Below, one piece after another: positions 6,226 through 34,893 of a stretch of DNA of 64,000 bases. Made by a program: the position numbers and the translations under genes. The first letter of the stretch is position 1. Every line of letters begins with the position of its first letter. The stretch is from Candidatus Phyllobacterium onerii (GTDB lineage Bacteria > Pseudomonadota > Alphaproteobacteria > Rhizobiales > Rhizobiaceae): positions 1 to 64,000 of the forward strand of contig NZ_JAQMHX010000007.1 in assembly GCF_028331445.1 (NCBI RefSeq). The letters run 5' to 3'. Below the pieces are notes generated by a model. That model was not told where the DNA came from, made no database searches, and saw nothing but the letters and a program-made list of their open reading frames with translations.

Positions 6226-6449
6226 TATTAGACGCAATCTGTCCGATACCGCTGGAGCTGATCCTGCAGAAACCGATTTGCGTGTAGGAAATGCGGACGG
6301 CTTGGTGTGCCCGGTTAGGTCGCTCATATAGCGCGAACAAAATCAAACCATATTTCAGCGGGATTTTATCATTCAACCCATGAACATTTTCATGGTTAGC
6401 GCATTTCAATTCGTACCTGCCGAACAGGCGTCGAGCAAGGATTGCAACC

Positions 6450-20974: not shown

Positions 20975-21781
20975 TCAAACAGCCTCGCTTGCCCAAACCT
21001 TGAATTTTGTCAGCACATTAGGCCCGAATATATTCGTCAGGGGTACGTCCGCAGCGTCGCGCCCATGCGCCACCTTAATTCGGCCTATTCGGGGCTGATT
21101 GTTACGGGGATCAAAAGCGTGCCACTTCCCCCCAAGGTAAACCTCCATCCACGCACAAAAGTCCATTTCCGCATGTGGCAATGGTATGCCGATATCAGTG
21201 ATATAACCAGTGCAATAGCGCGTCGGAATGTTCAGACAGCGGGAAAAAGTTACTGCAAGATGCGTGAAGTCACGGCACACTCCACGGCCTTCGAAATATC
21301 CCGAAGACGCTGTGCGAGTAGGGTTTGAATGCTCATATCCAAACACAATGTGGTTGTGGACGAAATCACACACCGCCTGAACGCGCTGCCAGCCTTCCGG
21401 TACGTGGCCGAACAGGCGCCATGCCTCCTCGCTCAACAAATCGGTCTCGCAATAGCGGCTGCCCATAAGATAGACCAGCGTTTCATCCGGAAGATCCTGC
21501 ACCCGGTGCTGAACAGCATCGAGAACCACCGAATCCGGCATGCCGCTGTCGTTGACGATGGCATTTGTGGAGCAAAAAAATGCGCCCGGTGCCGCGAGAA
21601 TGCGATTGCACCAGTTGCCGAACTGGTCGTGATAGCCATCGACACTGGCGCCGAATGTAGTCTGGAAAGTCTCGATGCCTTCCAGATCGGCAAAACGCGA
21701 ATGATGCACGTTCAAAATGGCAATCAGAGGCGTTTCCTGCGTAAACTCGAACGTCAGTTCACACCCCACATTAATCCTCAT
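20975..21781 (-). CDS. Transglutaminase-like protein
   Basis: The protein has 268 residues. The N-terminal beta-rich domain and a transglutaminase core are clear: Cys169 in GRGVCRDF, then DFCAWMEVYLGGKW and the FDPRN Asp (224). In classical members the motif before WxEVY is HAW and supplies the catalytic His. Here it is CAW (Cys209), so the triad seems altered. Bacterial members are often cysteine peptidases or assembly factors; the substrate is unknown. The first Met (21781) matches the family start. No partner gene is adjacent. Confidence 0.8.
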   Translation of the reverse strand: MRINVGCELTFEFTQETPLIAILNVHHSRFADLEGIETFQTTFGASVDGYHDQFGNWCNRILAAPGAFFCSTNAIVNDSGMPDSVVLDAVQHRVQDLPDETLVYLMGSRYCETDLLSEEAWRLFGHVPEGWQRVQAVCDFVHNHIVFGYEHSNPTRTASSGYFEGRGVCRDFTHLAVTFSRCLNIPTRYCTGYITDIGIPLPHAEMDFCAWMEVYLGGKWHAFDPRNNQPRIGRIKVAHGRDAADVPLTNIFGPNVLTKFKVWASEAV

Positions 21782-21843
21782 TAGTTGTTCCTTTAAAACA
21801 AAAAATCTGATTTCGATAAAAAAGACAGCACGACAGACTCTCG

Positions 21844-21876
21844 CACAAAAAGCAACCGGCCCGACAAGGGACCGGC
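21844..21876 (-). terminator. Terminator after the CsbD gene
   Basis: On the minus strand, CCGG(T)CCC pairs with GGGCCGG (plus coordinates 21856-21862 and 21868-21875) and is followed by a run of five T (plus 21847-21851). It lies 25 bp past the csbD stop. Confidence 0.65.
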
Positions 21877-21900
21877 TGAATTCGGCGGCGTTAAAGGCGA

Positions 21901-22092
21901 TCAGGCTTTATCGACAACCTTTTTCACAGCATCCTTGGCTCTACCCTTGGCTTGCTGTGCTTCGCCCTTCATTTCCTGCATTTTGCCCTTCGCCTGCATT
22001 TCTTTCGATCCGGTCGCCTTGCCGGCGGCCTGCCTCAAATTACCAGCCGCCTTGTTGGCTGCGCCGGAAAGTTTGTCGCTGGTACTACCCAT
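21901..22092 (-). CDS. CsbD family stress protein
   Basis: The protein has 63 residues. It is highly charged with the CsbD repeats of the form DKLSGAANKAAGNLRQAAGK and MQAKGKMQEMKGEAQQAKG. CsbD proteins are abundant stress-induced soluble proteins of unknown mechanism. GGAGTTCC precedes the start. A perfect EcfG promoter 36 bp upstream and a terminator downstream mark it as a monocistronic general-stress gene. Confidence 0.88.
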   Translation of the reverse strand: MGSTSDKLSGAANKAAGNLRQAAGKATGSKEMQAKGKMQEMKGEAQQAKGRAKDAVKKVVDKA

Positions 22093-22127
22093 CGGGAACT
22101 CCTTAAAGCATTCATCTACACCAAATA

Positions 22128-22152
22128 AACGGTGGGGCTTTGCGTTTGTTCC
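22128..22152 (-). promoter_or_regulatory. EcfG-type promoter of the CsbD gene
   Basis: On the minus strand GGAAC (plus 22148-22152) and CGTT (plus 22128-22131) are 16 bp apart, exactly the EcfG consensus. The -10 element ends 36 bp before the csbD start. Confidence 0.8.
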
Positions 22153-22213
22153 GTTGGTTCACAAGTTCACAAGCATTTGAAAATTCAGCGTGTTTTTACA
22201 AAAGCAGCAAACG

Positions 22214-22245
22214 ACCCGGCGCCCACGGGGGAACAGGCACCGGGT
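22214..22245 (-). terminator. Possible terminator of the AI-2E transporter gene
   Basis: An inverted repeat (22214-22223 with 22236-22245, one mismatch) lies about 100 bp past the transporter stop on the minus strand. The T-run after it is weak, so it is tentative. Confidence 0.35.
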
Positions 22246-22346
22246 CTCCAGTTACCGATCGAAGCTCGATCAGCTGGGTGGAAACGTAGCCAGCTGGCTC
22301 TTGGTTCCGCGAAAATTAAGATCGGTGAAAAATCTCGGGGAGCGGC

Positions 22347-24314
22347 TCACTCGCAAAGCTCTTGAACCACCGCTTCTAGCGACGATACAAAAAAACAGTT
22401 GCGTGTTGATCCAACGATCTTCTCGCCATCAACTTCGCTTCCATCTTCCGCCCAGAACCCGATGATAATCTTTACGCGTGCGTTCCGCCGTCTTATGCGG
22501 CGGACAAGATAACGTGCATGAGCGACCGAGGAGGTGTTGAGATAGCAAATGCAGATGGCACTCACGCCAGTAAGATCAAGCTTGCCGATATTGACCGCTT
22601 CTAGCTCGTCATGAGAAATATCGCGAACGTCAAAATCCTTGCGCTCTAGGATATCACCAAAAACAACGGCTGCGGCATCGTCGAGATCACCGCGTCCGCC
22701 TGCGGACGCGATTGTTCTCGGCTTCTCTGGTTTTACCTTCTCTTTACCGGCAACAGCTTTCTTGGAGCCCCCTTCAGGTTCGGCTCCCTCTTCTTCTTCG
22801 TCTTCAATGTCGTGATATTCCGACAGGTTCTCGATGAGAAGGATCATGCTTTGCGCCACACGATTGCGCCTAGGCTCGTCAAGCACGCCCCGGCCTCTGT
22901 CGTGTTCGGCGAGCAGCAATGCGGGAATAGCCACCGAAGCGTAATAATCCATGATGGTTGCCGATTGCAGATACTCCTCGGCCTTTTCTGTTGCTTCGTC
23001 CGGATCGCCGGATAACAGCCGTTGATATAGCTGCTGCGGCGGAAGGAGCACCGGCTCATTGCCAAGAAGAACATCTAAAAATTCGAACTTTGGCACGTGT
23101 CTTCCGAGAACGACCAAGCACACGGTGAGCGGTGTTGAAAGGATCAATCCAATCGGCCCCCAAATCCAGGTCCAGACAATGGCAGCCATTAGAATCGCAA
23201 CGGGGGACAACCCGGTCTTGGAACCGTAGAGAAGCGGCTCCATAATATTGCTACTGATGAGTTCGAGCACGATGAACAGAGCAGCCGTCCAGACGAGCAC
23301 CATCCAACCCGGATCGACTGCCAGCGACAGAATGAGCGGAAACGCAGCTGCAATAATTGGTCCGATATAGGGCACAAAACGGAGAACGATCGCCAGCATT
23401 CCCCACAGCATCGGATTGGGAATACCAATGAACCATAGCCCGATCCCGATAGGCACGCCGAAGCTGATATTGATGATCAACTGCATCAGCAAATATTGGC
23501 CGACGCGCTTGCCGGCATCATGCAGGGCAGTCGTCGTTCGGTGAATATCGCTGGCTCCCACCAGCTTTATGAAACGGTCGCGCAAATCTTCACGCCGCAT
23601 CAGCATGAAAATTACCACCACGATGACAATGCCGATTGTCGCCAGGGGCTGGATCAACGGTCCGGCAAAGGTCTGCAGCAAACTTAAGGGGTCTAGCGGT
23701 GGATTGCGGATTTCCACGGGTACGGGTTTGTTGGGATCTGTTCCGCGCAAGGGTGGTAGAGGGGCAGGCGGTGCAACATTTTGGGGAGGTTGTCGCGCCG
23801 GCTCTGGTTTGGTCGCTGGTCGGTTGTCGCTTTCAAAGCGTTCCACTTCGTCCGACCGACCAATTTCCTCGCTAAAGCGTTTGAACATGCGCGCGCCACG
23901 ATCAAAAATGCTGTTCCCCGACTGCGCATCCTTGATCGCGCGGATCTTCGTTTCGATATTGTACTGATAGCTTGGCAGATTCTGCGCCAACACAGTAAGC
24001 TGGCTCGCGACAATGCTGACGAAAATGAAGATCACAAGAAAGGCCGTTGTCACAACACTTAGTACGGCAATGCCTTTCGGGACACCCGAGCGGTGCAAGC
24101 GGGTGACCAACGGCGACAGCGCGAAGGTCAAAAGCAGAGCCAGCGCCAATGGCACGAAAACTTCGCGGGCGAAATAAAGCGCCGCTACTACGGCTATCGC
24201 GACAATTATTGGTGGGAACTGGTTCGCCGCATTGGCCGAAACAGGCGTATAGATCGATCGTTGGGTTACCCGTTCGACGGCACGCGACGCCCTTCCGGCT
24301 TCCTCAGAAGGCAT
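22347..24314 (-). CDS. AI-2E family transporter with long cytoplasmic C-terminal region
   Basis: The protein has 655 residues; simple AI-2E (PerM/YdiK-type) proteins have about 350. Membrane helices are seen near 33-70, 75-105, 215-240 and 285-400. The family core includes LRFVPYIGPIIAAAFP and SSNIMEPLLYG. A proline-rich loop (about 160-210) interrupts the first half. From about 410 on the protein is soluble. It has an acidic stretch (EDEEEEGAEPE), a Lys-rich linker and a final alpha/beta domain (ICICYLNTSSVAHARYLVRRI, then VKIIIGFWAED) that could bind a ligand or partner. The transported substrate is not known for this type. It lies among stress genes, but no EcfG promoter was found for it. 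Confidence 0.8.
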   Translation of the reverse strand: MPSEEAGRASRAVERVTQRSIYTPVSANAANQFPPIIVAIAVVAALYFAREVFVPLALALLLTFALSPLVTRLHRSGVPKGIAVLSVVTTAFLVIFIFVSIVASQLTVLAQNLPSYQYNIETKIRAIKDAQSGNSIFDRGARMFKRFSEEIGRSDEVERFESDNRPATKPEPARQPPQNVAPPAPLPPLRGTDPNKPVPVEIRNPPLDPLSLLQTFAGPLIQPLATIGIVIVVVIFMLMRREDLRDRFIKLVGASDIHRTTTALHDAGKRVGQYLLMQLIINISFGVPIGIGLWFIGIPNPMLWGMLAIVLRFVPYIGPIIAAAFPLILSLAVDPGWMVLVWTAALFIVLELISSNIMEPLLYGSKTGLSPVAILMAAIVWTWIWGPIGLILSTPLTVCLVVLGRHVPKFEFLDVLLGNEPVLLPPQQLYQRLLSGDPDEATEKAEEYLQSATIMDYYASVAIPALLLAEHDRGRGVLDEPRRNRVAQSMILLIENLSEYHDIEDEEEEGAEPEGGSKKAVAGKEKVKPEKPRTIASAGGRGDLDDAAAVVFGDILERKDFDVRDISHDELEAVNIGKLDLTGVSAICICYLNTSSVAHARYLVRRIRRRNARVKIIIGFWAEDGSEVDGEKIVGSTRNCFFVSSLEAVVQELCE

Positions 24315-24434
24315 GAAAACCTACCGGCATGACAACCATAAAAACCCATCTCCATTGAAACCCCGCGACAGGAACGAAGTCGGCTCAATTTGGTTGCATT
24401 TCACTTCTGGCACTTGGCTCGAGCCTGTTGCGTG

Positions 24435-24459
24435 GGAACCAAATCCTGGTTCGGGTGTT
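24435..24459 (+). promoter_or_regulatory. EcfG-type promoter of the DUF3309 gene
   Basis: GGAAC (24435-24439) and TGTT (24456-24459) are 16 bp apart. The first base of the -10 element departs from CGTT. It lies 37 bp before the start at 24497. Confidence 0.6.
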
Positions 24460-24496
24460 TCCGAGCTGTAAAGTTTCCCAGGAGAGGGAGGAACGA

Positions 24497-24655
24497 ATGC
24501 CACTAACGACAATTCTCATCATCATTCTCATCTTGGCGCTTATCGGGGTGTTTCCAACTTGGCCTCACGCCAGGAATTGGGGCTATGGCCCCTCTGGACT
24601 CGTGGGAATAATCTTGGTCGTTCTGTTGATTTTGCTTCTGATGGGCAGAATTTAA
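24497..24655 (+). CDS. DUF3309-like small membrane protein
   Basis: The protein has 52 residues. Two hydrophobic stretches (residues 4-20 and 35-50) flank a WPHARNWGYGPSG loop, the pattern of DUF3309. Members are tiny inner-membrane proteins common in proteobacteria and often stress-induced; mechanism is unknown. GAGGGAGGAAC just before ATG 24497 decides the start against a longer frame from 24428. It is probably transcribed from the EcfG-type promoter 37 bp upstream. Confidence 0.8.
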   Translation: MPLTTILIIILILALIGVFPTWPHARNWGYGPSGLVGIILVVLLILLLMGRI

Positions 24656-24714
24656 CGCGCTTCTTAGACCTTTATTACGAACGATCATCTGACATAGCTG
24701 AAAGGAATTTTGAA

Positions 24715-24798
24715 ATGTTACGAGGTGTTTTGCTTTGGCTCATCGGTCTGCCGCTTCCGATCATTCTCATTTTGTGGTTGATGGGCTATCTTTCATAA
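24715..24798 (+). CDS. 27-residue hydrophobic peptide
   Basis: A tiny open frame reads MLRGVLLWLIGLPLPIILIL followed by WLMGYLS, a single membrane helix. AAAGGAA at 24700-24706 is well placed. It stands in a run of small membrane and stress genes, 59 bp after the DUF3309 gene. No function can be named. I judge it real because of the ribosome site and because peptides like it recur in rhizobial genomes as far as I recall. Confidence 0.55.
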   Translation: MLRGVLLWLIGLPLPIILILWLMGYLS

Positions 24799-24848
24799 GC
24801 TTTGGGAACGGAAGGCCGCTAGTAGACTTGCAGCGGCCCCCAATGCGT

Positions 24849-24874
24849 GGAACAAATACTGCAGACCAAACGTT
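24849..24874 (+). promoter_or_regulatory. EcfG-type promoter of the DUF883 gene
   Basis: GGAAC (24849-24853) and CGTT (24871-24874) are 17 bp apart. The element ends 38 bp before the start codon at 24913. Confidence 0.75.
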
Positions 24875-24912
24875 CTGGACCGATATCCACCTGTTTTCTC
24901 AAGGAGTTTTCT

Positions 24913-25251
24913 ATGGCTACGGTTTCTTCAAAAATTCGCAAAGCGGTTGACGACGCGACCGATAGCAATCCTGATTTGCAAGCCCAGGTCGCAGCACTAA
25001 AGGACGACATCGCGAATATTGCAGCAACCCTTGCCAAGATAGGAAAGAGTTCTGCCAAGGACGCCACACGCAACGCAGCAAGTTCCTATGAAACCGCAAA
25101 AGTCCGCGGTGAGGAAACGTTGGACGATCTTCGCCTGCAGGCTCGTGAGCTTGAAGACCAGCTCACTGAAACTGTTCGCGAACACCCCTTGACCACGATT
25201 GCCGTCGCCGCCGGTGTCGGTTTTCTTCTTGCCCTGATTGCCCGCCGCTGA
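24913..25251 (+). CDS. DUF883 (ElaB/YqjD-like) protein
   Basis: The protein has 112 residues. A charged helical body is followed by a glycine-containing hydrophobic tail (TTIAVAAGVGFLLALIARR), the hallmark of ElaB/YqjD proteins. In E. coli these are C-tail-anchored membrane proteins that bind ribosomes in stationary phase; whether this one does is unknown. AAGGAG precedes the ATG at 24913. An EcfG promoter lies upstream, and the next gene starts 1 bp after its stop, so the two form a stress operon. Confidence 0.85.
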   Translation: MATVSSKIRKAVDDATDSNPDLQAQVAALKDDIANIAATLAKIGKSSAKDATRNAASSYETAKVRGEETLDDLRLQARELEDQLTETVREHPLTTIAVAAGVGFLLALIARR

Positions 25252-25252
25252 C

Positions 25253-25729
25253 ATGCTCAAACTGTTAGCTCCACTTTTAACCAGCGTCGCCGCGGGTGAA
25301 GTTGGCCTCGTGATAAACAGATTGAAGCGCAGCGCGGTCTTCGCTGGCATCATCGCTGTGCTAGCAATTATCGGCGTGATTTTCCTGGTTGTGGCTGCCT
25401 ATATCGCCCTTGCCGAGCGCTACGGCGAAATGCATGCGTCGTTGATCCTTGCCGGTAGCGCGTTCGGCTTGGCTATCATCACTTACATAGTCATGAATAT
25501 CGTCGAACGCGCCGCGCGAAATCGCCAGCGCGAACGTACAAAGGTTGATACATCCGCTCTTCTTACAGTTGCAGCTCTTGCTGCAGCACCGGTTGTCCTG
25601 CGATCACGTGCACTCATGATGCTTGCAGTTCCTCTCGTGGCTTTTGGAGGCCTTTCGCTCCTGACAAAACCAAAGAGGAAGAAACGGCGGCGTCCTGAAG
25701 ACACCTCATCTATGGGCCAGGATATTTGA
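25253..25729 (+). CDS. Small membrane protein, phage holin/YqjE-like
   Basis: The protein has 158 residues. Two hydrophobic helices at about 30-55 and 65-90 are followed by a basic stretch, a third hydrophobic region near 105-140 and a Lys/Arg-rich tail (KPKRKKRRR). In E. coli the YqjD gene is followed by yqjE, a similar small membrane protein, so this is probably its counterpart, though sequence similarity is weak by eye. It starts 1 bp after the DUF883 stop (TGACATG), implying coupled translation under the same EcfG promoter. Confidence 0.65.
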   Translation: MLKLLAPLLTSVAAGEVGLVINRLKRSAVFAGIIAVLAIIGVIFLVVAAYIALAERYGEMHASLILAGSAFGLAIITYIVMNIVERAARNRQRERTKVDTSALLTVAALAAAPVVLRSRALMMLAVPLVAFGGLSLLTKPKRKKRRRPEDTSSMGQDI

Positions 25730-27232
25730 GTGATCGCGGATGGGCATGGAAATCAAAGCCTCCATACCTGTTTCCGGATAACTCAATCTGACACTGCTTG
25801 ACAGAACCTTGTCCAGGCTGCGCTCGATCAATCTTTCACCGAGCCCTCGCGCTTCCGGCGGCAGCACCTTCGGACCGTTGGATTCTACCCAGTGGATGGT
25901 AACGCGGGATTCATCGAGGCCGGGTTCTATTTGCCATGACACCCGCACGCGACCGCCGGCGACGGACAGGGCGCCATGTCTAGCTGCATTGGTAGCGAGC
26001 TCGTGCAGCGCAATGCCAAGCCCGAGTGCGTGATCCGGCGGTAAAACCATGTCCTCCCCTGCGAGCTCGATCTGCCGAGGATCAAAACCCGCATAGGGCT
26101 CCACTTGTTTTGCAATCAAATCGATCAGGCTGATGCCGCTCCATTCTCGATCGGAAAGCAATGTATGTGCCTCCGAAATGGCCCGAAGACGTCCTGAAAA
26201 CGCCTCCATGAACTCCGCTGGATCGGATGTTCGATTGAGCGTCTGCCGTGCCAGTGATTGCAACATCGCCAAGGTGTTTTTGACGCGGTGATTGAGCTCA
26301 CGCAGCAGGAGCCGCGTTTTTTCGGCAGCTTTCTTTGTGTCCGTAATATCAATATTGACACCAACCGCCACCACGGGCCTCCCCTGGGCATCGCGTTCGA
26401 AAATACGACCGCGTCCTAGAAGCCATTGACCCGATGACGCAGCGCGGAATTCTCCGACATAATCCTGATTGCTGACCAGCGCACGTGTGAAGGCTGATTT
26501 CATGATTGGAAAATCGTCGGGGTGCATTGCCCGGAAGACGTCTTCGCCGCTGACAGGTTGATCGGGACTAAGACCAAGCATGGAATAGGCCATCCTGTTG
26601 CCACTGAACTTGCCCGTGCGCAGATCCCATACCCAGCTGCCGACATTGCCGACCTCAAGTGCCATGGAATTACGATCTTCATCCTGACGCAACTTCGCCA
26701 TAGCGTCGGTTTCCGTGCGGGATTCACGTTTGAGCGAGATAAACGAACCGGCAAGTCTTGCCAGAAGCATGAGTTGCTTCTGCTGGATTAAAGCGAATTC
26801 CGTTCGGGGCTCGTCGGACAGGACGCTGAGAGCTCCAATACACTCGTTTGAGACGCAGATCGGTGCAACGGCCAGGAACCGCAGATTCGGCCCATGGGTC
26901 ACCGCATCGATTTCGGAATAGCGAACATCCTCCGCGGCGTTCAGAATGATCAGGCAACTCTTGTCAGGTGCCGCCAGTGAACTGGCTTCAATAGCCCAGA
27001 TATTGGCTATCCCAAGACGGCCTGCATGGGACAAGATACGGCTTCGTTTCTCATCCACAAGCGTGATCTGTGCGCCGCTGCTGTTGGACATCGCCAATGC
27101 GAGTTCCGCCAAACAATGGAATTCGTTGTCATGCTCGCGAATTTCAAGCGTCTTCAAACTCGAAAGAACATCACGACGCGACGACCCCGACAGAAATTCT
27201 AACGTGCTTTCTGAAATGTTTTCCGATCTCAT
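25706..27232 (-). CDS. HWE sensor histidine kinase with GAF and PAS domains
   Basis: The protein has 508 residues. A GAF-like sensor domain spans about 25-180 and a PAS/PAC domain about 195-310 (GNVGSWVWDL, MHPDDFP). The HWE kinase H-box is ELNHRVKNTLAMLQSLARQ, and the ATPase domain has an N-box HELATNAARHGA. No membrane helix is seen, so it senses in the cytoplasm. HWE kinases are the usual input to PhyR in alphaproteobacteria, and this one is itself behind a perfect EcfG promoter, which suggests feedback. I prefer ATG 27232 to TTG 27238. Its 3' end overlaps the convergent membrane protein gene by 24 bp. Confidence 0.88.
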   Translation of the reverse strand: MRSENISESTLEFLSGSSRRDVLSSLKTLEIREHDNEFHCLAELALAMSNSSGAQITLVDEKRSRILSHAGRLGIANIWAIEASSLAAPDKSCLIILNAAEDVRYSEIDAVTHGPNLRFLAVAPICVSNECIGALSVLSDEPRTEFALIQQKQLMLLARLAGSFISLKRESRTETDAMAKLRQDEDRNSMALEVGNVGSWVWDLRTGKFSGNRMAYSMLGLSPDQPVSGEDVFRAMHPDDFPIMKSAFTRALVSNQDYVGEFRAASSGQWLLGRGRIFERDAQGRPVVAVGVNIDITDTKKAAEKTRLLLRELNHRVKNTLAMLQSLARQTLNRTSDPAEFMEAFSGRLRAISEAHTLLSDREWSGISLIDLIAKQVEPYAGFDPRQIELAGEDMVLPPDHALGLGIALHELATNAARHGALSVAGGRVRVSWQIEPGLDESRVTIHWVESNGPKVLPPEARGLGERLIERSLDKVLSSSVRLSYPETGMEALISMPIRDHSNILAHR

Positions 27233-27290
27233 ATCCAAATGATGGCTCGCATCGCCACCCTACTCATACCATCGATACAGCTCCCTCAAG

Positions 27291-27315
27291 AACGCAACCC
27301 TTTGTGCTTTGTTCC
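27291..27315 (-). promoter_or_regulatory. EcfG-type promoter of the GAF-PAS kinase gene
   Basis: On the minus strand GGAAC (plus 27311-27315) and CGTT (plus 27291-27294) are separated by 16 bp, an exact consensus match. It is head to head with the plus-strand EcfG promoter at 27322; six bases separate the two -35 elements. Confidence 0.82.
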
Positions 27316-27321
27316 TTAATG

Positions 27322-27346
27322 GGAACATTTATCCAGCACCTTCGTT
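27322..27346 (+). promoter_or_regulatory. EcfG-type promoter of the 73-aa protein gene
   Basis: GGAAC (27322-27326) and CGTT (27343-27346) are separated by 16 bp. The start codon at 27375 is 28 bp further on. Confidence 0.82.
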
Positions 27347-27374
27347 TTCGTTAGACTACCGAAGGAGGCCGAAA

Positions 27375-27596
27375 ATGCTTGAAGCGAATGACATTCTTTC
27401 TGACGAAAGCCTGAGCAGGGTCCAGAAGATTGCCAAACTGGAAGAACTGTTGAGCGAAGCTCGGGGACTACAGCGAGCGGCCACAGAAAGTGGTATGGAT
27501 CCTGATGATGGTGTAACACGAAATTTGCGGGACATCGAACTTGCCCTTGGTCATCTGAACGCCGAAAAACCGGAAACAGGTGCGGCGACGCTGTGA
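27375..27596 (+). CDS. Small protein of unknown function, EcfG-controlled
   Basis: The protein has 73 residues and I do not recognise it. It is soluble, acidic and helical (SRVQKIAKLEELLSEARGLQ), with no signal or membrane segment. GAAGGAGG (27361-27368) is an excellent ribosome site for ATG 27375. The perfect EcfG promoter immediately upstream makes it a general-stress gene. It converges on the CHASE3 kinase gene. It could be a stress-induced adaptor or regulator, but nothing in the sequence shows this. Confidence 0.75.
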   Translation: MLEANDILSDESLSRVQKIAKLEELLSEARGLQRAATESGMDPDDGVTRNLRDIELALGHLNAEKPETGAATL

Positions 27597-27605
27597 GGAA
27601 AGCGA

Positions 27606-28994
27606 TCATTCATCCTTTTCAGTGGCCTGCTCTGACTGTATCTCCATGAGGCCAGGCAACGCCACCTTCACTGAGGTGCCCCCACCCGGACTGGCAGAGT
27701 AGACAACGGATCCATCGAATTGCTGGCAAAGCTGATTGACGATGAGCGACCCAAGTCCAGAGGAGCGTTTCTTCGATGTCTTCTGCATGCCGACGCCGGT
27801 ATCGGCAATCTCCAGTCTCAGAACATCACCTTCACCGCGCGCGAGATCGATTCTTATCTCTCCCGGCTTGTTGTCCGGAAAAGCGTGTTTTATGGCGTTC
27901 ATCGTCAACTCGCCGATGATTATTCCGAGCGTCGTCGCATCGCGGGAGCTCAGGTTTATCGGGGCAAGCTCTGCGACAATCCTGATATCTCGGTCATGGG
28001 CAGTCGACTGCTTGATATCAGCGATAACGTCCGGCAAATATTCATCCGCACGAACAGTCTCATGATCCTTTCCAAGCCGCAGACGTCTGTGGGCCGACGA
28101 AATGGTTTGAATTCTGTCGCGGGCTGCCCCGAGTGCGGCGCGTATTTCCTCCGACGATACGTCCCGCATCTGAATACCGAGTAGCGACGAGACTGTCGCA
28201 AGCGAATTTCCTATGCGATGGTCGGAATCCTGCAGCAGCGTTTCCACGCGAGCCCGCTCCCGTTTTGCCAAGAGCATGGCTTTTTCAAGTTCCGCCGTCC
28301 TGTTTTGGACCATACTTTCCAGAATTGTTTTTTCTGAAAGAAGCAATGTTTGTCCCTCTGTCAGCTTGCGTACATAACGTCTGGTTCGGTTCGCAAGAAT
28401 GACTGCCAGAATGAGAGCACCCCCGAGGGAAGAGAGCGCGGCTATTGTTAGCCAGCTTCTCATTTGATCCACAGCAATGTTTCGTTCAATCAGCCTTCGA
28501 TCCTCTTCTGCGAGAAAGCCGTCGACCGTCTTATTGATTTCATCGAGTTGACCAACGCCGAAATTTGGTCCGAGGGACTCACGCGCTTCCGTACTCATCC
28601 CCGCAACCGCCTGGGCAATCGCCGCATCCACGTTTCTCTGTTTTGCTTTCGCCAGATCGCGGATTCGCGTTGCCGTAGCCTGCTGCCGCGGATTTCCCTT
28701 GGTCATTTCCGTAAGCGTATTGAGGCTCTCGTCGAGCCGGGCTGTCACGTTCCGATAATGATCAAGTAACGGGGTACTGTTCGTCAAGATGAACCCGCGC
28801 TGACTGTTGTGAGCCTCGGTCATCAATGACAGCGAACCATACGCCTGTTCACGCACCTTATATGTGGCGAGGATATCGTCGATCTGATTGTTGACGCTGC
28901 GCGCAAGGATAATCGTGGAGCCGGCTGAACCAATAATCATGCCGAGCGAAAGTACGATCGCCAAGCCTCTTAGCGGCCTCCGTGAAAAGCTCAT
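27606..28994 (-). CDS. Membrane sensor histidine kinase, CHASE3 and HisKA_2 domains
   Basis: The protein has 462 residues. Helix 1 is at about 10-35, and a periplasmic CHASE3 domain with the RGFILT motif follows. Helix 2 is at about 185-205. A linker coiled coil leads to the HisKA_2 box (DHRIGNSLATVSSLLGIQ) and an ATPase domain with ELTMNAIKHAF and DTGVGM. This is the layout of PhyK-type kinases that phosphorylate PhyR, and its place 2 kb from phyR supports that role. I chose ATG 28994 because translation upstream of it has no family likeness and the first helix follows directly. Confidence 0.88.
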   Translation of the reverse strand: MSFSRRPLRGLAIVLSLGMIIGSAGSTIILARSVNNQIDDILATYKVREQAYGSLSLMTEAHNSQRGFILTNSTPLLDHYRNVTARLDESLNTLTEMTKGNPRQQATATRIRDLAKAKQRNVDAAIAQAVAGMSTEARESLGPNFGVGQLDEINKTVDGFLAEEDRRLIERNIAVDQMRSWLTIAALSSLGGALILAVILANRTRRYVRKLTEGQTLLLSEKTILESMVQNRTAELEKAMLLAKRERARVETLLQDSDHRIGNSLATVSSLLGIQMRDVSSEEIRAALGAARDRIQTISSAHRRLRLGKDHETVRADEYLPDVIADIKQSTAHDRDIRIVAELAPINLSSRDATTLGIIIGELTMNAIKHAFPDNKPGEIRIDLARGEGDVLRLEIADTGVGMQKTSKKRSSGLGSLIVNQLCQQFDGSVVYSASPGGGTSVKVALPGLMEIQSEQATEKDE

Positions 28995-29040
28995 GACAAT
29001 TCTGCGCCACCACAACAAATGATGTGCCCTCCATGGAATT

Positions 29041-29796
29041 CTAGATATATGGTCGAAGCGTGCCCGGCAAACCCTGCCAACCCGATATGTCCAGGAGCAC
29101 GTCCTCCTCAAGGATCTCGCACCCGCGATCAAGCCAACGAAGGGCGTTACGAGCAGCGAGCTTCTTCAACGTCTTGTTAGTGTGAACAATCGATAGGCCT
29201 AGCGTATCAGCCACATGTTGCTGCGTCAGCGGCACCATCAGCTTGTTGCTCCTGACCATCCCTACTGATTTGGCACGCTGGAACACGAAGGCAAAAAGAT
29301 AGGCTGCCCTCTCCAAGGCAGTGCGCCGTCCCACGCTTAGCAGGATTTCGTCGAGCATTTGTTCCTCGCGGGAAGCAATCCAGGTTATGTCATAGGCAAG
29401 TTCGGGATAATTGCGGAAGAGGTTTGCAAGTTTATCGCGCTGAAATACACAAAGTATCATCGGCGACAAAGCCTCGATCGAATGCTGCATCTCGTGCATC
29501 ACAGACCCTTGCAGACCGATCAAATCACCGGGAAGTACATAGTTCAGGATCTGCCGACGACCGTCTTCCAATGTTTTGTAGCGGAAGCCCCAACCAGAGA
29601 GCACGGTGAAGAGGTGCGCACTATTGGCACCTTCCACAAGGACAGTCGTACCGGCATCGGCAACCAGCTCGCCCGTTTTGAAGTTCGTGAGAAACGATAT
29701 TTCTTCTTTGGTATGCCGTTGAAAATGCGGAAATTCCTGCAATGGACATTTGTCACAGGGATATTGCCTGGCAGCCGAAGCTTTAATGGTTCTCAT
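29041..29796 (-). CDS. Crp/Fnr family transcriptional regulator
   Basis: The protein has 251 residues. The cyclic-nucleotide-binding-like beta barrel spans about 30-150 and a Crp-type helix-turn-helix lies at about 185-215 (LTQQHVADTLGLSIVHTNKTLKKL). An N-terminal CDKCPL gives one CxxC, but the four-cysteine iron-sulfur set of Fnr is not present, so oxygen sensing by a cluster is unlikely. It sits between the CHASE3 kinase and the receiver gene in the PhyR district, as such regulators often do in rhizobia. The effector is unknown. Confidence 0.88.
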   Translation of the reverse strand: MRTIKASAARQYPCDKCPLQEFPHFQRHTKEEISFLTNFKTGELVADAGTTVLVEGANSAHLFTVLSGWGFRYKTLEDGRRQILNYVLPGDLIGLQGSVMHEMQHSIEALSPMILCVFQRDKLANLFRNYPELAYDITWIASREEQMLDEILLSVGRRTALERAAYLFAFVFQRAKSVGMVRSNKLMVPLTQQHVADTLGLSIVHTNKTLKKLAARNALRWLDRGCEILEEDVLLDISGWQGLPGTLRPYI

Positions 29797-29938
29797 TGTG
29801 GCCGTTCAGTTGATGTCGGGTTACAAGTTATCATGCCCTCTGTGAATTGCTTAACATTTCTTCGCAATCCGCATGTCTTAGTTAAATGACATTGCGATTC
29901 CGTCCTGTGCATAAGAAGTCCCCACAGGAGCATCTTAA

Positions 29939-30346
29939 ATGGAATTGAAAGGCATGCGACTTCTGGTCCTCGAAGATGAATATCTGATTGGACTAGAGCT
30001 GGCGCGCATCGCGGAAGAGTGCCAGGTGCAATCCGTCGATCTGGTTTCGAATGTTAATGAACTACTTGCCTGGATCGAAAGCGACGCCGAATGCGACATT
30101 GCAATCATCGAGGTCGAAGCGCACGGTGTTTCTTCATTGCAGGCGGCCACCCTATTGCAATCGCGAGGCGTGCCGCTGGTTTTCACCACTGCGTATGATG
30201 TGGAAGCAGGTGGCATAGATGGCTTTGTAGGAGTTACCGTTGTCGGCAAACCCTACGGCAAAAGCCAAATTATCAAAGCTGTCGCCGCCTTATCTCCGTC
30301 GAAAAAGCGATTCAACGAAACCGGCTCCTCAGGCGAACTTGTTTGA
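29939..30346 (+). CDS. Stand-alone receiver protein with Glu at the phosphorylation site
   Basis: The protein has 135 residues, one receiver domain and a short tail. The acidic pocket (VLEDEYL, residues about 11-17), the switch Thr (FTTAYD) and the conserved Lys (GKPYG) are all present. At the end of strand 3, where the phospho-accepting Asp belongs, it has Glu58 (IAIIEVEAHG). Glu can mimic phospho-Asp, so the protein may be locked in an active-like state or act as a phosphorylation-independent partner. CAGGAG supports ATG 29939. It overlaps the convergent ecfG gene by 18 bp. Confidence 0.85.
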   Translation: MELKGMRLLVLEDEYLIGLELARIAEECQVQSVDLVSNVNELLAWIESDAECDIAIIEVEAHGVSSLQAATLLQSRGVPLVFTTAYDVEAGGIDGFVGVTVVGKPYGKSQIIKAVAALSPSKKRFNETGSSGELV

Positions 30347-30880
30347 CGTGACCTGCGTTGCGATTGAATCAGGGCCGTAGTCTACCTCCCCCTGAATCTC
30401 GAGCAATTCCTGCAGACGTGTTCTGGCACGGCTCACACGGCTTTTGATCGTTCCAACGGCGCACTCGCAGATTTCAGCAGCCTCTTCATAAGAAAAGCCC
30501 GACGCGCCGACAAGTATGATCGCTTCACGCTGATCGTCGGGCAGCTTTTCGAGCGCTTTGCGAAAATCCTGCAAATCCAGCGAGCCATATTGTGCCGGAT
30601 GAACGGACAACTGCTCGGTGAATATCCCATCGGAATCCTGAACCTCGCGCCCGCGCTTGCGCATCTGGCTGTAGAATTCGTTGCGCAAGATCGTAAACAG
30701 CCAAGCCTTGATATTGGTGCCGGGCTCGAACGAATCCTGTTTGGCCCACGCCTTCATGATCGTATCCTGCACAAGGTCATCTGCCCTGTCCGGATTACCG
30801 ATCAGCGACACTGCAAATGCTCGCAGTTTCGGCAAGGCAGCAATCAAATCTCTCTTGAAGTCGGCAGATTCATGTACCAT
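30329..30880 (-). CDS. ecfG: EcfG general stress sigma factor
   Basis: The protein has 183 residues. Region 2 is DLVQDTIMKAWAKQDSFEPG plus NIKAWLFTILRNEFYSQ, and region 4 is EKLPDDQREAIILVGASGFSYEEAAEICECAVGTIKSRVSRAR. These are typical of ECF15 (EcfG/RpoE2). It directs RNA polymerase to GGAAC-N16/17-CGTT promoters and is held by NepR until PhyR-P binds NepR. The gene starts 11 bp after the nepR stop, as in other GSR loci. No C-terminal extra domain is present. Confidence 0.95.
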   Translation of the reverse strand: MVHESADFKRDLIAALPKLRAFAVSLIGNPDRADDLVQDTIMKAWAKQDSFEPGTNIKAWLFTILRNEFYSQMRKRGREVQDSDGIFTEQLSVHPAQYGSLDLQDFRKALEKLPDDQREAIILVGASGFSYEEAAEICECAVGTIKSRVSRARTRLQELLEIQGEVDYGPDSIATQVTSNKFA

Positions 30881-30891
30881 TCAACAGCCTG

Positions 30892-31095
30892 TTATTTGGT
30901 TGATTGCGTATGATTGCGTTCAGCCTCATCAAGCTTTTCAAGAAGATCGAGAAAACGAGCTGGTATTTCTTCCTCCTGCACCGATGCGTAAAGCGCGCGT
31001 AACTTCAGACCAATTTCCGTTTCAGCGTTCTTAATGTCGCGGCGGCGAACTCGCACCTTTTCAGGAGCGTCAATAGAATTCTTTTTGGCGTTCAT
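30892..31095 (-). CDS. nepR: NepR anti-sigma factor
   Basis: The protein has 67 residues. The conserved helix IGLKLRALYASVQEEEIPARFLDLLEKL is the EcfG/PhyR-binding region of NepR. It binds EcfG in unstressed cells and switches to phosphorylated PhyR under stress. I chose ATG 31095 because the upstream reading has no family likeness. It is co-transcribed with ecfG and divergent to phyR, the classical arrangement. Its own promoter should lie near 31169-31193, where GGAAC is present on the minus strand but the -10 is poor. Confidence 0.93.
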   Translation of the reverse strand: MNAKKNSIDAPEKVRVRRRDIKNAETEIGLKLRALYASVQEEEIPARFLDLLEKLDEAERNHTQSTK

Positions 31096-31199
31096 TGTCT
31101 GATCTTTGCTGGTGGTTCGTCGCTGTAGTATGAATAGAGCCTGTACCCAAGGCACATTAATGATGATAATTCCTGACAAAGAAGAAAGTTCCGTTACAG

Positions 31200-31224
31200 G
31201 GAACTTTTTTTTTGCGAAAGTGTT
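31200..31224 (+). promoter_or_regulatory. EcfG-type promoter of phyR
   Basis: GGAAC (31200-31204) and TGTT (31221-31224) are 16 bp apart. A GGAAC in the opposite direction (plus 31189-31193) lies 6 bp away, head to head. That arm has no CGTT at 16 or 17 bp (only TT at 18 bp), so autoregulation of nepR-ecfG from it is less certain. Confidence 0.7.
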
Positions 31225-31280
31225 TCAGGAAGGAACTCACCACGCCTCAGTACCCCACCCGAAACAGGGAAATCACTATA

Positions 31281-32075
31281 ATGTCATTGTCCACCCGGAT
31301 AGCCCCTCATCTTCCATATCTTCGCCGTTTCGCTCGCGCTATCACCGGCTCGCAATCTTCCGGCGATGCCTACGTTGCGGCGACGCTTGAAATTCTCATC
31401 ACCGACGTTTCCCTTTTCCCTCAAGCAGGATCCGATCGTGCAAGCCTCTACAAGCTGCTGATCAAACATTTCAACTCCGTCAATGTCCGCCCTCTCGAAC
31501 TGAAATCCGAGTTCGGCTGGGAGAGACATGCAGCGGCCAACCTCACTGCAATCGCGCCGAAAGCCCGTCAGGCCTTCCTGCTGATCAGCCTTGAAGGTTT
31601 CAGCCAGGCTGAGACGATGGAAATTCTCGAAGTCACGGAAGGCGAACTTTACGGGCTGTTGGACGAGGCATCCGTCGGCATTTCGAAACAGATCGCAACC
31701 GACATTCTGATTATTGAGGACGAACCTTTGATCGCCATGGATATTGAGCACATGGTCCAAACCCTCGGGCACCGCGTGGTTGGCATTGCACGCACGCGCG
31801 ACGAGGCGCTCAAGATTTACTCCGCCACCCATCCGAGCATGATACTGGCAGATATCCAGCTTGCGGACGGAAGCTCCGGTATCGACGCAGTGAACAACAT
31901 TCTCAGTCAGGATGCGGTTCCTGTTATTTTCATCACCGCCTTTCCCGAAAGATTGCTGACAGGAGAACGGCCGGAACCGACCTTCCTCGTTACCAAACCG
32001 TTCAATCCCGATATGGTCAAGGCATTAATCACCCAGGCCCTGTTCTTTAAAGAGAGCAGCAAAGCCAAGGCGTAG
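31281..32075 (+). CDS. phyR: PhyR, general stress response regulator
   Basis: The protein has 264 residues. The N-terminal part (about 1-130) is sigma-factor-like and mimics EcfG for NepR binding. The C-terminal receiver has the acidic pocket IIEDEPLIAMD, phospho-acceptor Asp191 (ILADIQL), and the ITAFPERLLTGERPEPTFLVTKPF class signature split over strands 4 and 5. On phosphorylation it captures NepR and frees EcfG. ATG 31281 matches the family start (MSLSTRIAPHLP). Its gene is divergent to nepR-ecfG and behind an EcfG-like promoter. Confidence 0.95.
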   Translation: MSLSTRIAPHLPYLRRFARAITGSQSSGDAYVAATLEILITDVSLFPQAGSDRASLYKLLIKHFNSVNVRPLELKSEFGWERHAAANLTAIAPKARQAFLLISLEGFSQAETMEILEVTEGELYGLLDEASVGISKQIATDILIIEDEPLIAMDIEHMVQTLGHRVVGIARTRDEALKIYSATHPSMILADIQLADGSSGIDAVNNILSQDAVPVIFITAFPERLLTGERPEPTFLVTKPFNPDMVKALITQALFFKESSKAKA

Positions 32076-32097
32076 AGCGCTTTGCCCTCCTGCCTCG

Positions 32098-32122
32098 GGA
32101 ACAAAACAGCGTCTTGCTCGTT
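32098..32122 (+). promoter_or_regulatory. EcfG-type promoter of the DUF1328 gene
   Basis: GGAAC (32098-32102) and CGTT (32119-32122) are separated by exactly 16 bp. The start codon at 32152 is 29 bp further on. Confidence 0.8.
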
Positions 32123-32151
32123 TTGAATCCGACAAGACAGGGAGATGATAA

Positions 32152-32316
32152 ATGCTTTATTATGCTGTAATTTTTCTGATCATAGCACTTGTGGCAGGCG
32201 CGTTAGGATTTGGTGGTATTGCCGGTGCCTCGGCGGGTATCGCCCAGATCATTTTCTACGTGTTCCTGGCGCTGCTGCTGATCTCATTGATCGCCAGCAT
32301 CATACGTCGCGCTTAA
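32152..32316 (+). CDS. DUF1328 small membrane protein
   Basis: The protein has 54 residues with two hydrophobic helices: [19 protein letters not shown], then [20 protein letters not shown]. This is the DUF1328 (YtjA-like) pattern, a tiny stress-related membrane family of unknown mechanism. AGGGAGAT is placed 5 bp before the ATG. It lies between a perfect EcfG promoter and a strong terminator, so it is a monocistronic stress gene following phyR. Confidence 0.85.
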
Positions 32317-32330
32317 CCGCAGCAAATCAC

Positions 32331-32361
32331 AAAAACCGCCGGTCTCGTACCGGCGGTTTTT
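32331..32361. terminator. Strong bidirectional terminator
   Basis: A perfect 12-bp inverted repeat AAAAACCGCCGG / CCGGCGGTTTTT (32331-32342, 32350-32361) with a 7-nt loop provides an A-run before and a T-run after the GC stem. Confidence 0.9.
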
Positions 32362-32445
32362 GTGTATCTTTAAGAAGTCCTGTCCGGGATTGCGGCAAAC
32401 TCAATTTTTGTAGTAGTCACGCTGAATGAAGCGTGGGAGCCAAAG

Positions 32446-33933
32446 GTGTTCTGGCGAAAATTCAGCATGGCCTCACTTGATGGCCCACCAATCAATTGGT
32501 CAAAACTTGCACGCCTCGCCCCGCGTGCAATCGTTCTGTACATCCTTGCCATCTTAGTACTGCGCCTCTTTCTTTCGCGGTTTATGGAAATCGATGAGGC
32601 GCAATTCGTTGGCGAAGTTGCATTCGCTTGGAACTATGGCAACTCGCATCCGCCAATGTACAATTGGCTGGTGCGACTCGCGCTTGAACTGACTGGTTGG
32701 AACTGGGTTCTTGCTGTCGCTCTGGTGCGCCTTTCCCTGCTTGGGCTCTATCACTGGCTTAGTTTCGATACTGCGCGCCGACTGGGTGGTGACCGCGCAG
32801 GCGTACTAGCGTTAACTGCGTCGGCGTTTCTGCCGCAGATAGTCTGGATGTCCATCCAGACTACAGCACATACTATTCTCGTTATTTCCGCATCAATCGG
32901 CATCGTTCATGCCTTTGCGCTGTTGCGTGAGGGGAAGGGTACGCGTGCATACATCTGGTTTGGCATCTGGGCGGCAATCGGGGCCTTGGCCAAATATAAC
33001 TTCTTCATTTTTCTGGTCAGCTTCCTCATCGCTGCGGTGATAACGCCAACCATTCGCCGTCAATTGTTCCAGCGGCGGATCTGGATCTCGATTGCTATTT
33101 TCATTGCTGCTTTTACACCCGTCATTGTCGCCTCCCTCAATGCACCCTTGGCGGCGACAGCCGGCAGAATGCATAAGCTTGCGCAGGCGATCGGCTATCT
33201 GGAATCATTCGATCTTCCGCGGGTAGGGATCGACGGGCTAGCCAGTCTCCTGATTTCAACCTTCCTGTGGGCCGGCCCTGCCCTCATAATCTTCTGGATT
33301 GGTCGGACTCGAGATCATCCACGCCCCCCGCCGGATGGCGCCGAGGATGTCCGCAAGCTCCTGCTTCGCACAATACTGATCGGCCTTGGCGCCTTCGCCG
33401 TATTGGTTTTCATTGCCGATTACCATTCCGTCGCAGAGCGCTATATGGCCCCGATCCTGGCACCGACTGCGATCCTTTTGGCGCTCTCTTTGCCGCAGGT
33501 ACTCGGCGCGCGCAATGTGCTCGTCATCTCAGGCGCCATGTACATCCTTGCCCCGCTGGCAGTCGCAATGATTGCGCTGTTTGGCACCCCTCGATTCAAT
33601 TTTCCCTTCGACGGCGTAGCCGATGCGATCCGCGCACAGAATCCCACGCCTGCGAGAATCGCGTCAAACCGTCAGGATGATGCGGGCAATGTAGCAGCGC
33701 TCTTGCATTGGCCACCTGAACGGGGCGAAGCCTCGGATATTGTTCTGGTCTGGCAGGGCAATGACGACCCTGGCGAAGAAGCATTAGCGCGGTTACCGGT
33801 TGACGCACAGCCCATCGGACCGGTTACACGGGTGACCGCGCGAGTGCGAAACTTCAATGGGGAACTGCGAACCTTTAGCTTCCAGCGTTATTCATCTCGG
33901 TTACCGATGCCGGATCAGAATAGCGGCGGATGA
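32446..33933 (+). CDS. GT-C glycosyltransferase, ArnT/PMT-2 family
   Basis: The protein has 495 residues with about ten membrane helices. The first periplasmic loop has the acidic MEIDEAQF motif; Asp there is the usual catalytic base of GT83/GT39 enzymes. Such proteins move a sugar from a polyprenyl-phosphate carrier to lipid A or another envelope acceptor on the periplasmic face. GTG 32446 (GGGAGCCAAAG upstream) or ATG 32467 are both possible starts. The convergent neighbour is a polyprenyl-phosphate glycosyltransferase-like gene, which could make its donor. The two coding ends overlap by 59 bp. Confidence 0.82.
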   Translation: MFWRKFSMASLDGPPINWSKLARLAPRAIVLYILAILVLRLFLSRFMEIDEAQFVGEVAFAWNYGNSHPPMYNWLVRLALELTGWNWVLAVALVRLSLLGLYHWLSFDTARRLGGDRAGVLALTASAFLPQIVWMSIQTTAHTILVISASIGIVHAFALLREGKGTRAYIWFGIWAAIGALAKYNFFIFLVSFLIAAVITPTIRRQLFQRRIWISIAIFIAAFTPVIVASLNAPLAATAGRMHKLAQAIGYLESFDLPRVGIDGLASLLISTFLWAGPALIIFWIGRTRDHPRPPPDGAEDVRKLLLRTILIGLGAFAVLVFIADYHSVAERYMAPILAPTAILLALSLPQVLGARNVLVISGAMYILAPLAVAMIALFGTPRFNFPFDGVADAIRAQNPTPARIASNRQDDAGNVAALLHWPPERGEASDIVLVWQGNDDPGEEALARLPVDAQPIGPVTRVTARVRNFNGELRTFSFQRYSSRLPMPDQNSGG

Positions 33934-34672
33934 GCCAGAAAACACCGACCGTATCAAGAAATGCCACCGCGGCACGGTCAAAAAAACCATACTTCGATAC
34001 GCCGGCCAGTCTTGGCCGGTCCTCGACGTCGACCTCGATTACTGGCAGCCCGGCCCTTCGCGACAAAGCCGGAATAAACCGATGCATGTTGTCGAAATAG
34101 GGCAGACTTTGCGCTACTACAGCCGGAAGAATCTTGAAACCGCAGCCCGCATCCCGGCAATCATCCTTCAGCAGCCGTTTACGCACGAAATTGGCGGATC
34201 TTGAAGTTAACAGTTTGACGATACCATCGTTACGCCGTTTCCTTACACCCGCGAAAAGCGCTGGAGATGCGCGCTCAAGGCGAGGCCACAATCGCGCAAT
34301 ATCCATCGGGTCATTCTGGCCATCGCCATCCAGCGTCGCAATCCACCGGCCTTGGGCCGCCCGAAAGCCGCTGATCAAGGCGCGTGATTTGCCAGTGCGT
34401 TTTTTGTGGCGCAGCACACGGGTGTGGTCGCCGGCGGCTGCGGCTTCCTCCGCCGATCCATCAGCGGACCCATCATCGACCACAATGATCTCATAGGATG
34501 GGCCGGATAAGAGCGCTGTATTGATTTCCCTCACCAGGTTTCCGATGTTGCCGGACTCGTTGTAACATGGGATTACGATCGTCAAATCGGTCATATTGAG
34601 AACCATTGGTGAAGGGGATGCCACATCCGGATGCCCAAGATCACTGAGTGATTTTGCAGATGCAGCCATCAC
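33875..34672 (-). CDS. GT2 glycosyltransferase, polyprenyl/dolichyl-phosphate sugar transferase-like
   Basis: The protein has 265 residues. The GT-A fold is marked by TIVIPCYNESGN, VVDDGSADGS and LDGDGQNDP. It is of the dolichol-phosphate mannosyltransferase type and lacks long C-terminal membrane helices. It probably transfers a sugar from a nucleotide donor to undecaprenyl phosphate on the cytoplasmic face. The start is uncertain: GTG 34672 (AGGTG nearby), ATG 34669, or internal Met codons nearer the TIVIP motif. Together with the convergent ArnT-like gene it suggests an envelope-sugar modification pair. Confidence 0.8.
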   Translation of the reverse strand: MMAASAKSLSDLGHPDVASPSPMVLNMTDLTIVIPCYNESGNIGNLVREINTALLSGPSYEIIVVDDGSADGSAEEAAAAGDHTRVLRHKKRTGKSRALISGFRAAQGRWIATLDGDGQNDPMDIARLWPRLERASPALFAGVRKRRNDGIVKLLTSRSANFVRKRLLKDDCRDAGCGFKILPAVVAQSLPYFDNMHRFIPALSRRAGLPVIEVDVEDRPRLAGVSKYGFFDRAAVAFLDTVGVFWLIRRYSDPASVTEMNNAGS

Positions 34673-34893
34673 CTAAATATAGACATGTTGGAGCGAATTC
34701 CATCCCCCTGGACGGTATCCGCGTCAAGAAGCATCGACCAAAGTTCAATGCGGTGATCGGAGCGCCGCAATTCCGCCACGTCAATCAATGCTAAATCATC
34801 AGACTTTCGACGTGGCTGGTTTATGGTTAATACTTCATTAATCGAAGTCTCCCTAAAGTCGGGATCAAACCATCTCTCTAGTCCGGTCCGGCA

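Follow-up and report, generated by a model that had tools for sequence, protein, structure and literature searches.

The general stress response locus

The window (the whole stretch of 64,000 nucleotides of Candidatus Phyllobacterium onerii DNA that was analysed) contains a complete general stress response (GSR) locus at about 21-36 kb. This locus includes ecfG, nepR, phyR, a CHASE3-HisKA_2 kinase, a Crp/FNR regulator, a lone receiver, the histidine kinase gene kinA, a DUF883 gene, and a gene for a holin-like protein (Table 1). Two promoter-like elements lie between kinA and a divergent gene for a 73-aa protein, here named P73. An Rfam scan of positions 21000-36000 found no family at gathering score.

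Table 1. Features of the GSR locus, in window positions.
Feature	Position	Strand	Basis and remarks
DUF883 (YqjD-like) ORF as listed	24847..25251	+	PF19029 over cut-off; profile match to E. coli YqjD
Membrane protein resembling Phage_holin_3_6	25238..25729	+	25.0 bits against a cut-off of 28.4 here; over cut-off in 2/3 orthologues scanned
kinA, GAF-PAS HWE histidine kinase, 508 aa, HRVKN motif	25706..27232	-	Domain scan, motif alignment; start ATG 27232
Probable sigma-EcfG promoter toward kinA	27291..27315	-	Exact motif; kept in 14/14 loci
Gap separating the two -35 boxes	27316..27321		6 bp in 13/14 loci, 5 bp in L007
Probable sigma-EcfG promoter toward P73	27322..27346	+	Exact motif; kept in 14/14 loci; own exact element in 50/52 close relatives
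P73, 73-aa protein (predicted helical hairpin) without a named family; C-terminus GAATL	27375..27596	+	ORF translation, structure prediction, alignment
CHASE3-HisKA_2 kinase, HRIGN motif, convergent with P73	27606..29132	-	Listed ORF; its TTG start probably lies upstream of the true one
ecfG sigma factor	30329..30880	-	NF009169 over cut-off
nepR anti-sigma factor	30892..31179	-	PF18557 over cut-off; gene probably starts inside the listed ORF
Imperfect back-to-back pair at nepR/phyR	31188..31224		GTTCC, 7 bp, GGAAC-N16-TGTT; -10 boxes degenerate
phyR	31212..32075	+	Domain match; ORF as listed, start probably about 31281

The sequence-only reading had described the kinA product as a GAF-PAS HWE kinase, and the domain scan agreed: GAF, PAS, and HWE domains were all matched. 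The HRVKN sequence, which represents the HRXXN motif of GSR kinases, is also present in kinA of 13 Phyllobacterium-type relatives, and kinA adjoins P73 at the GSR locus in all 13. The CHASE3 kinase was not found in three of these relatives (L004, L005, and L007). A kinA orthologue with 43% identity was identified in another family (L122); it too is transcribed away from P73 and is preceded by an exact EcfG element, and the P73 gene there lacks an upstream one. Further matches to the EcfG motif occur within the locus. One of them (24849-24874, N17) overlaps the first part of the listed DUF883 ORF, and the real start is therefore probably about 24913. The imperfect pair between nepR and phyR showed no CGTT at N16-17 on its nepR side. 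An exact element at 32098-32122 (+) follows phyR; behind it lies a 54-codon ORF for a membrane protein (32152-32316, +), which the listed ORF 32145-32429 misses and which we take to be DUF1328-like.

The lone receiver (29939-30346, +) carries Glu at the expected phospho-accepting Asp (AIIEVEAHG). This Glu is kept in 12 of the 13 Phyllobacterium-type relatives, the other one (L003) having no receiver match, and three relatives of another family have Asp. The protein is possibly a locked, phosphate-mimicking regulator.

Probable divergent promoters between kinA and P73

The two elements, read from the window, are GGAACAAAGCACAAAGGGTTGCGTT on the minus strand (27315-27291) and GGAACATTTATCCAGCACCTTCGTT on the plus strand (27322-27346). 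Both are exact matches to GGAAC-N16-CGTT. They face apart, with 6 bp (TTAATG) between their -35 boxes, so that positions and letters match what the earlier reading had claimed. GAAGGAGG precedes the 73-aa frame (27375-27593 plus stop). The excerpted text of PMC3892343 gives GGAAC-N16-CGTT as the EcfG1 motif of R. etli. The assignment of both elements to sigma-EcfG, also proposed from the letters, gained support from their conservation in relatives and from the ecfG, nepR, and phyR genes about 3-4 kb away.

Alignment of the 14 Phyllobacterium-type loci (13 relatives and the window) showed that both elements are kept in every locus. Within the intergenic region, conservation runs longest in the two -35 and the two -10 boxes. 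The gap letters vary, and the spacers drift, except at isolated positions and at a TA just behind the P73 -35 box.

Such matches might arise by chance without any function. A 64-kb stretch is expected to contain about two exact matches (N15-18), and single exact matches (N16-17) are not enriched across the 6.0 Mb genome (150, versus 190 for the backward pattern); exactness alone is therefore little proof. However, the window has 8 exact matches (N15-18) against 2.15 expected, and none of 100 shuffles reached 8. The conserved elements and spacing leave a footprint that also speaks against chance. The paired arrangement is more telling than single matches. The source genome has one head-to-head pair against none in the control. 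Head-to-head exact pairs (N16, gap 0-20 bp) were found in 55 of 199 genomes of the family and in 0 of 199 with the backward control; the convergent arrangement occurred in 1/199, as did its own backward control. The family in these counts is group f1 of the database used, presumably Rhizobiaceae in GTDB. A chance origin is thus highly improbable. The pair very probably represents sigma-EcfG promoters for the sensor kinase gene and the P73 gene, and dependence of both promoters on EcfG is suggested by motif, conservation, and gene neighbourhood.

Recurrence of the back-to-back arrangement

A total of 60 head-to-head sites were found, and 57 were classified by their flanks, the three Phyllobacterium sites being left out. 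Most of them lie beside phyR (43 sites) or nepR-ecfG (1 site); 7 lie beside AI-2E-type transporter or DUF883 genes, and the remaining 6 have no tested gene beside them. Gaps of 5-10 bp occur at 46 of the 57 sites (binomial 5e-16 against a uniform gap of 0-20 bp, for related genomes whose sites are not independent). All 46 flank phyR, nepR, or AI-2E/DUF883 genes. The six unplaced sites, with gaps of 2, 11, 15, 16, 16, and 19 bp, are probably chance.

Back-to-back EcfG promoters are known in kind, because the sections seen of two papers describe nepR-ecfG and phyR as divergent units, both EcfG-dependent, with an HRXXN kinase nearby (PMC4814048, PMC8103513). The kinA/P73 pair is a further site of this recurrent, partly known design, which the sequence-only reading had not recognised. 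In the open-access literature searched, no paper was found that describes paired EcfG promoters with a kinase gene on one side and a small-protein gene on the other.

The narrow gap raises the question of whether both promoters can be used. Two holoenzymes can hardly sit together on -35 boxes 6 bp apart. The promoters might therefore be mutually exclusive, or only one might work, with the fixed spacing encoding a competition between kinase and P73 output. The narrow gaps at 46 of the 57 sites outside Phyllobacterium suggest a selected geometry, in line with such competition. However, occlusion is argued from general knowledge of polymerase footprints, the sites come from related genomes and are not independent, and both elements are equally conserved in the 14 loci. 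From this equal conservation, both promoters are probably used, and we regard exclusive use or encoded competition as quite unlikely. Narrow-gap back-to-back EcfG promoters form a repeated design beyond nepR/phyR, and competition or cooperation of paired ECF promoters could therefore be tested at many natural sites.

The P73 protein family

The sequence-only reading did not recognise the family of the 73-aa protein and suggested a protein search. No Pfam, NCBIfam, or PADLOC model matched P73; the lack of a PADLOC match also gave no reason to place it in anti-phage defence. A search for solved relatives by sequence returned one match at E 1.7. AlphaFold2 modelling with 23 sequences predicted helices at residues 4-9, 15-39, and 47-63, followed by a loose tail (mean pLDDT 79.7, pTM 0.63). 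P73 has no hydrophobic segment, the best 19-residue mean being -0.09. No convincing paralogue was found in its own genome (second match E 1.2).

The gene is under purifying selection, with dN/dS of 0.04-0.11 in the 9 orthologue pairs with estimable dS (16 tried). At its closest loci, in P. trifolii and Phyllobacterium sp. KW56, P73 is 99% identical. Two wider searches showed that the family is broad and stands behind DUF883 in some genera, which the first reading had not seen. A search for gene relatives across the order (397 genomes) found P73 matches at E 0.001 in 23 genomes, and in 17 of these the match reached 1.2e-11 or better. Within the 199 family genomes, 40 had a match at E 1e-5, spread over 27 of 109 genera. 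Two of these 40, the window's own genome (G000) and a genome with a short match containing a stop (G534), are not among the 38 wider loci considered below.

The sequence EARGLQRAA is a hallmark of P73 in close relatives and becomes looser further out. The C-terminal [TS]L, usually within GAATL or GAASL, is present in 32 of the 38 wider loci. It is absent in L184, L186, L190, L197, L203, and L205, three of which are among the four weakest matches of the 199-genome search. EARGLQRA was not found in the open-access literature searched, and Phyllobacterium was not mentioned among the literature matches listed.

Candidate identities of P73

Profile comparisons of P73 with NepR, EcfG, PhyR, DUF883, DUF2630, and uL29 were all negative. 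The reading of P73 as a NepR mimic was rejected: P73 does not match PF18557, which in its own genome is matched by the nepR gene only, and hhalign gave probabilities of 0.20 and 0.12. EcfG scored best of the set (hhalign probability 5.2 and 3.9; E 0.0075 over 17 columns) and was not counted as a match. Pfam DUF2630 resembles P73 as a short helical protein, with weak hmmscan matches in 8 of 23 P73 members (best E 0.0055). However, P73 itself is unmatched at E 1, and the profile comparison, with only two DUF2630 proteins, was negative. No paper on DUF2630 was found in the open-access literature searched.

P73 might also be a ribosome-associated hairpin resembling ribosomal protein uL29. A Foldseek search of the model against the PDB gave 169 matches; among the best 50, which contain none at E 0.001 or better, several are ribosome entries. 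The matched chains are presumably uL29/eL35. However, no E value in those 50 falls below 0.6, and helix pairs of Dps reach a higher match probability (up to 0.90, at E 1.5 or worse). The fold match is therefore unspecific. Against 28 L29 sequences, hhalign gave a probability of 0.35, and the best hmmsearch match had E 0.014 and 6.6 bits. In the text available of PMC10746276, E. coli YqjD is described as tethering ribosomes, which would lend a ribosomal role some appeal. We consider such a role very unlikely.

P73 as a probable member of the general stress regulon

The P73 promoter is strongly conserved. The close-relative search gave 54 loci; the counts omit L053 and L054, in which the match lies inside a longer unrelated protein. 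An exact EcfG element lies at most 110 bp upstream of the P73 match in 50 of the remaining 52, with 0.009 expected per region and 0/52 in the backward control. The two misses are L051, with an exact element 172 bp upstream, and L020, with a near match only.

Among the 38 wider loci, 19 have their own exact element within 150 bp. In 15, ecfG, nepR, or phyR lies within the 4-16 kb stretch; four of these 15 lack the [TS]L tail. Ten loci have P73 behind a co-oriented DUF883 gene without an intervening kinA, and in 9 of these 10 (L179, L181, L189, L198, L201, L204, L112, L113, and L114; the exception is L175) an exact element lies within 350 bp before the DUF883 match. The DUF883 relative of L189, the one relative scanned with domain models, matched no DUF883 model at E 0.01 and was called from tblastn only. 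In 13 of the 38 loci, 6 of which are without the [TS]L tail, no exact element was found either before P73 itself or before an upstream DUF883, and P73 relatives outside the window's family mostly lack an EcfG element upstream. The order search yielded 12 stretches (eleven outside the family, and G396). The GSR core stands beside P73 in five of them, from three families (L112-L114, L121, and L122), and is missing there in seven. In Mesorhizobium, P73 lies away from the GSR locus and retains its promoter.

The earlier view of the 73-aa gene as a stress factor is thereby strengthened: its own element in close relatives, its linkage to GSR genes at wider loci, and the element before DUF883 make P73 very probably a member of the general stress regulon.

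Three observations from the surroundings of related elements and genes may be added. Elsewhere in the source genome (L244, G000:C6:156116-156140), an exact EcfG element agrees with the P73 promoter at 13 of 16 spacer positions; a 163-codon ORF begins 100 bp on, and its product looks like a YciF/DUF892 stress protein. On two Aminobacter plasmids (L065 and L066, about 5968-6671), a NUDIX hydrolase gene begins 2 bp after the P73 relative, with PRC-barrel and trehalose genes around. In Mesorhizobium ciceri (L015, 6705-11402), a large multi-PAS hybrid kinase follows the P73 relative by about 500 bp.

Proposed role of the promoter pair and of P73

The GSR aids stress survival in alphaproteobacteria, including plant symbionts, and many proteins of its regulon have no assigned role. 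Comparison among genomes supports the promoter pair, its conservation, the P73 family, and its linkage to GSR genes. On this basis, the 56-bp element would act as a bidirectional sigma-EcfG promoter. Under stress, phosphorylated PhyR would cause NepR to release EcfG. The EcfG holoenzyme would then fire leftward to produce the HRXXN/HWE kinase, which may adjust PhyR phosphorylation, and rightward to produce P73. Since EcfG control of a GSR kinase implies feedback, it is plausible that kinA belongs to a feedback loop, as the sequence-only reading had proposed; the loop would act on PhyR phosphorylation, in one direction or the other. P73 would be a small cytosolic helical hairpin in the general-stress regulon of many Hyphomicrobiales, perhaps working with DUF883 (YqjD-like) and holin-like membrane proteins. 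The EcfG dependence, the kinase target, and the function and partners of P73 are what we infer from these arrangements.

P73 might instead be a feedback regulator of the GSR switch, made under EcfG and binding KinA, PhyR, NepR, or EcfG, to shut off or boost the response. Such a role is consistent with the presence of P73 at the GSR locus, seen in Phyllobacterium and also in several further genera and families, and with its back-to-back arrangement with the kinase in Phyllobacterium and L122. A precedent is NepR2 of Sphingomonas melonis, a small feedback regulator under EcfG control according to the excerpt of PMC6599016. However, P73 has no profile similarity to NepR or PhyR, and the Mesorhizobium gene kept its promoter away from the GSR genes, as effectors do. 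A regulatory role is therefore possible but less than probable.

An effector or accessory role is judged likelier than that of a pathway regulator, on two grounds. The promoter persists even where P73 is no longer linked to the switch genes, and in five loci from three genera (L113, L114, L189, L201, and L204) P73 is the last gene of a DUF883 - holin-like - P73 row preceded by an exact EcfG element. In Phyllobacterium, kinA separates P73 from DUF883, and in Mesorhizobium the two are unlinked; profile comparison showed no sequence link between P73 and any partner. The whole explanation, a bidirectional EcfG promoter serving a PhyR-adjusting kinase together with P73 as an effector or accessory rather than a switch component, has in our judgement a little better than an even chance of being correct.

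A bolder and unlikely extension is that P73 founds a new family of general-stress adaptors. The hairpin would dock its partner, and the conserved C-terminal tail (usually GAATL or GAASL) would serve as a short linear motif recognised by a protease, by a chaperone, or by the DUF883/holin-like membrane proteins. The adaptor would be made together with the kinase, and the 5-6 bp spacing would balance the two outputs. Whatever its role, P73 represents a small conserved family that is connected to the GSR regulon through its promoter and, in several bacterial families, also through its position, and its single short tail offers a target for mutation.

Comparison with known systems

The DUF883 and holin-like genes recall the E. 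coli yqjC-yqjD-yqjE-yqjK operon, which is RpoS-dependent, and PA3040-3042 of P. aeruginosa. The DUF883 set of the window matches E. coli YqjD (hhalign 94%, E 1e-7), and the gamma operons, as far as the sources at hand describe them, also contain a third protein. The available portion of PMC10746276 describes yqjD as an RpoS-dependent gene whose product recruits ribosomes to the membrane. The part consulted of PMC11302039 reports that the third, domain-less protein of PA3040-3042 gave single-gene phenotypes in one clinical isolate and not in PAO1. However, the sigma factor and the bacterial class are different. P73 does not match YqjK (hhalign 0.05, hmmsearch -0.3 bits), whose best 19-residue hydrophobic mean is 1.35 against -0.09 in P73, and direct profile comparison of the holin-like set with YqjE gave no match. 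These two differences weaken the operon analogy, and the likeness is one of position only. No report of EcfG together with DUF883 was found in the open-access literature searched.

NepR2, as presented in the excerpt cited above, and P73 are alike in being small proteins made under EcfG, which for P73 is a prediction. P73 differs in having neither a NepR domain nor NepR profile similarity.

The closest parallel is the divergent promoter region of nepR-ecfG and phyR, where 44 of the 57 classified head-to-head sites fall. Both arrangements have two sigma-EcfG elements facing apart across a small gap, with GSR genes in both directions. The window pair is different in its targets: instead of the switch proteins, it would drive a sensor kinase and a small protein without a named family. 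Judged by sequence comparison, the kinA/P73 pair adds a new site to a partly known design, and P73 is a well-supported candidate member of the regulon.
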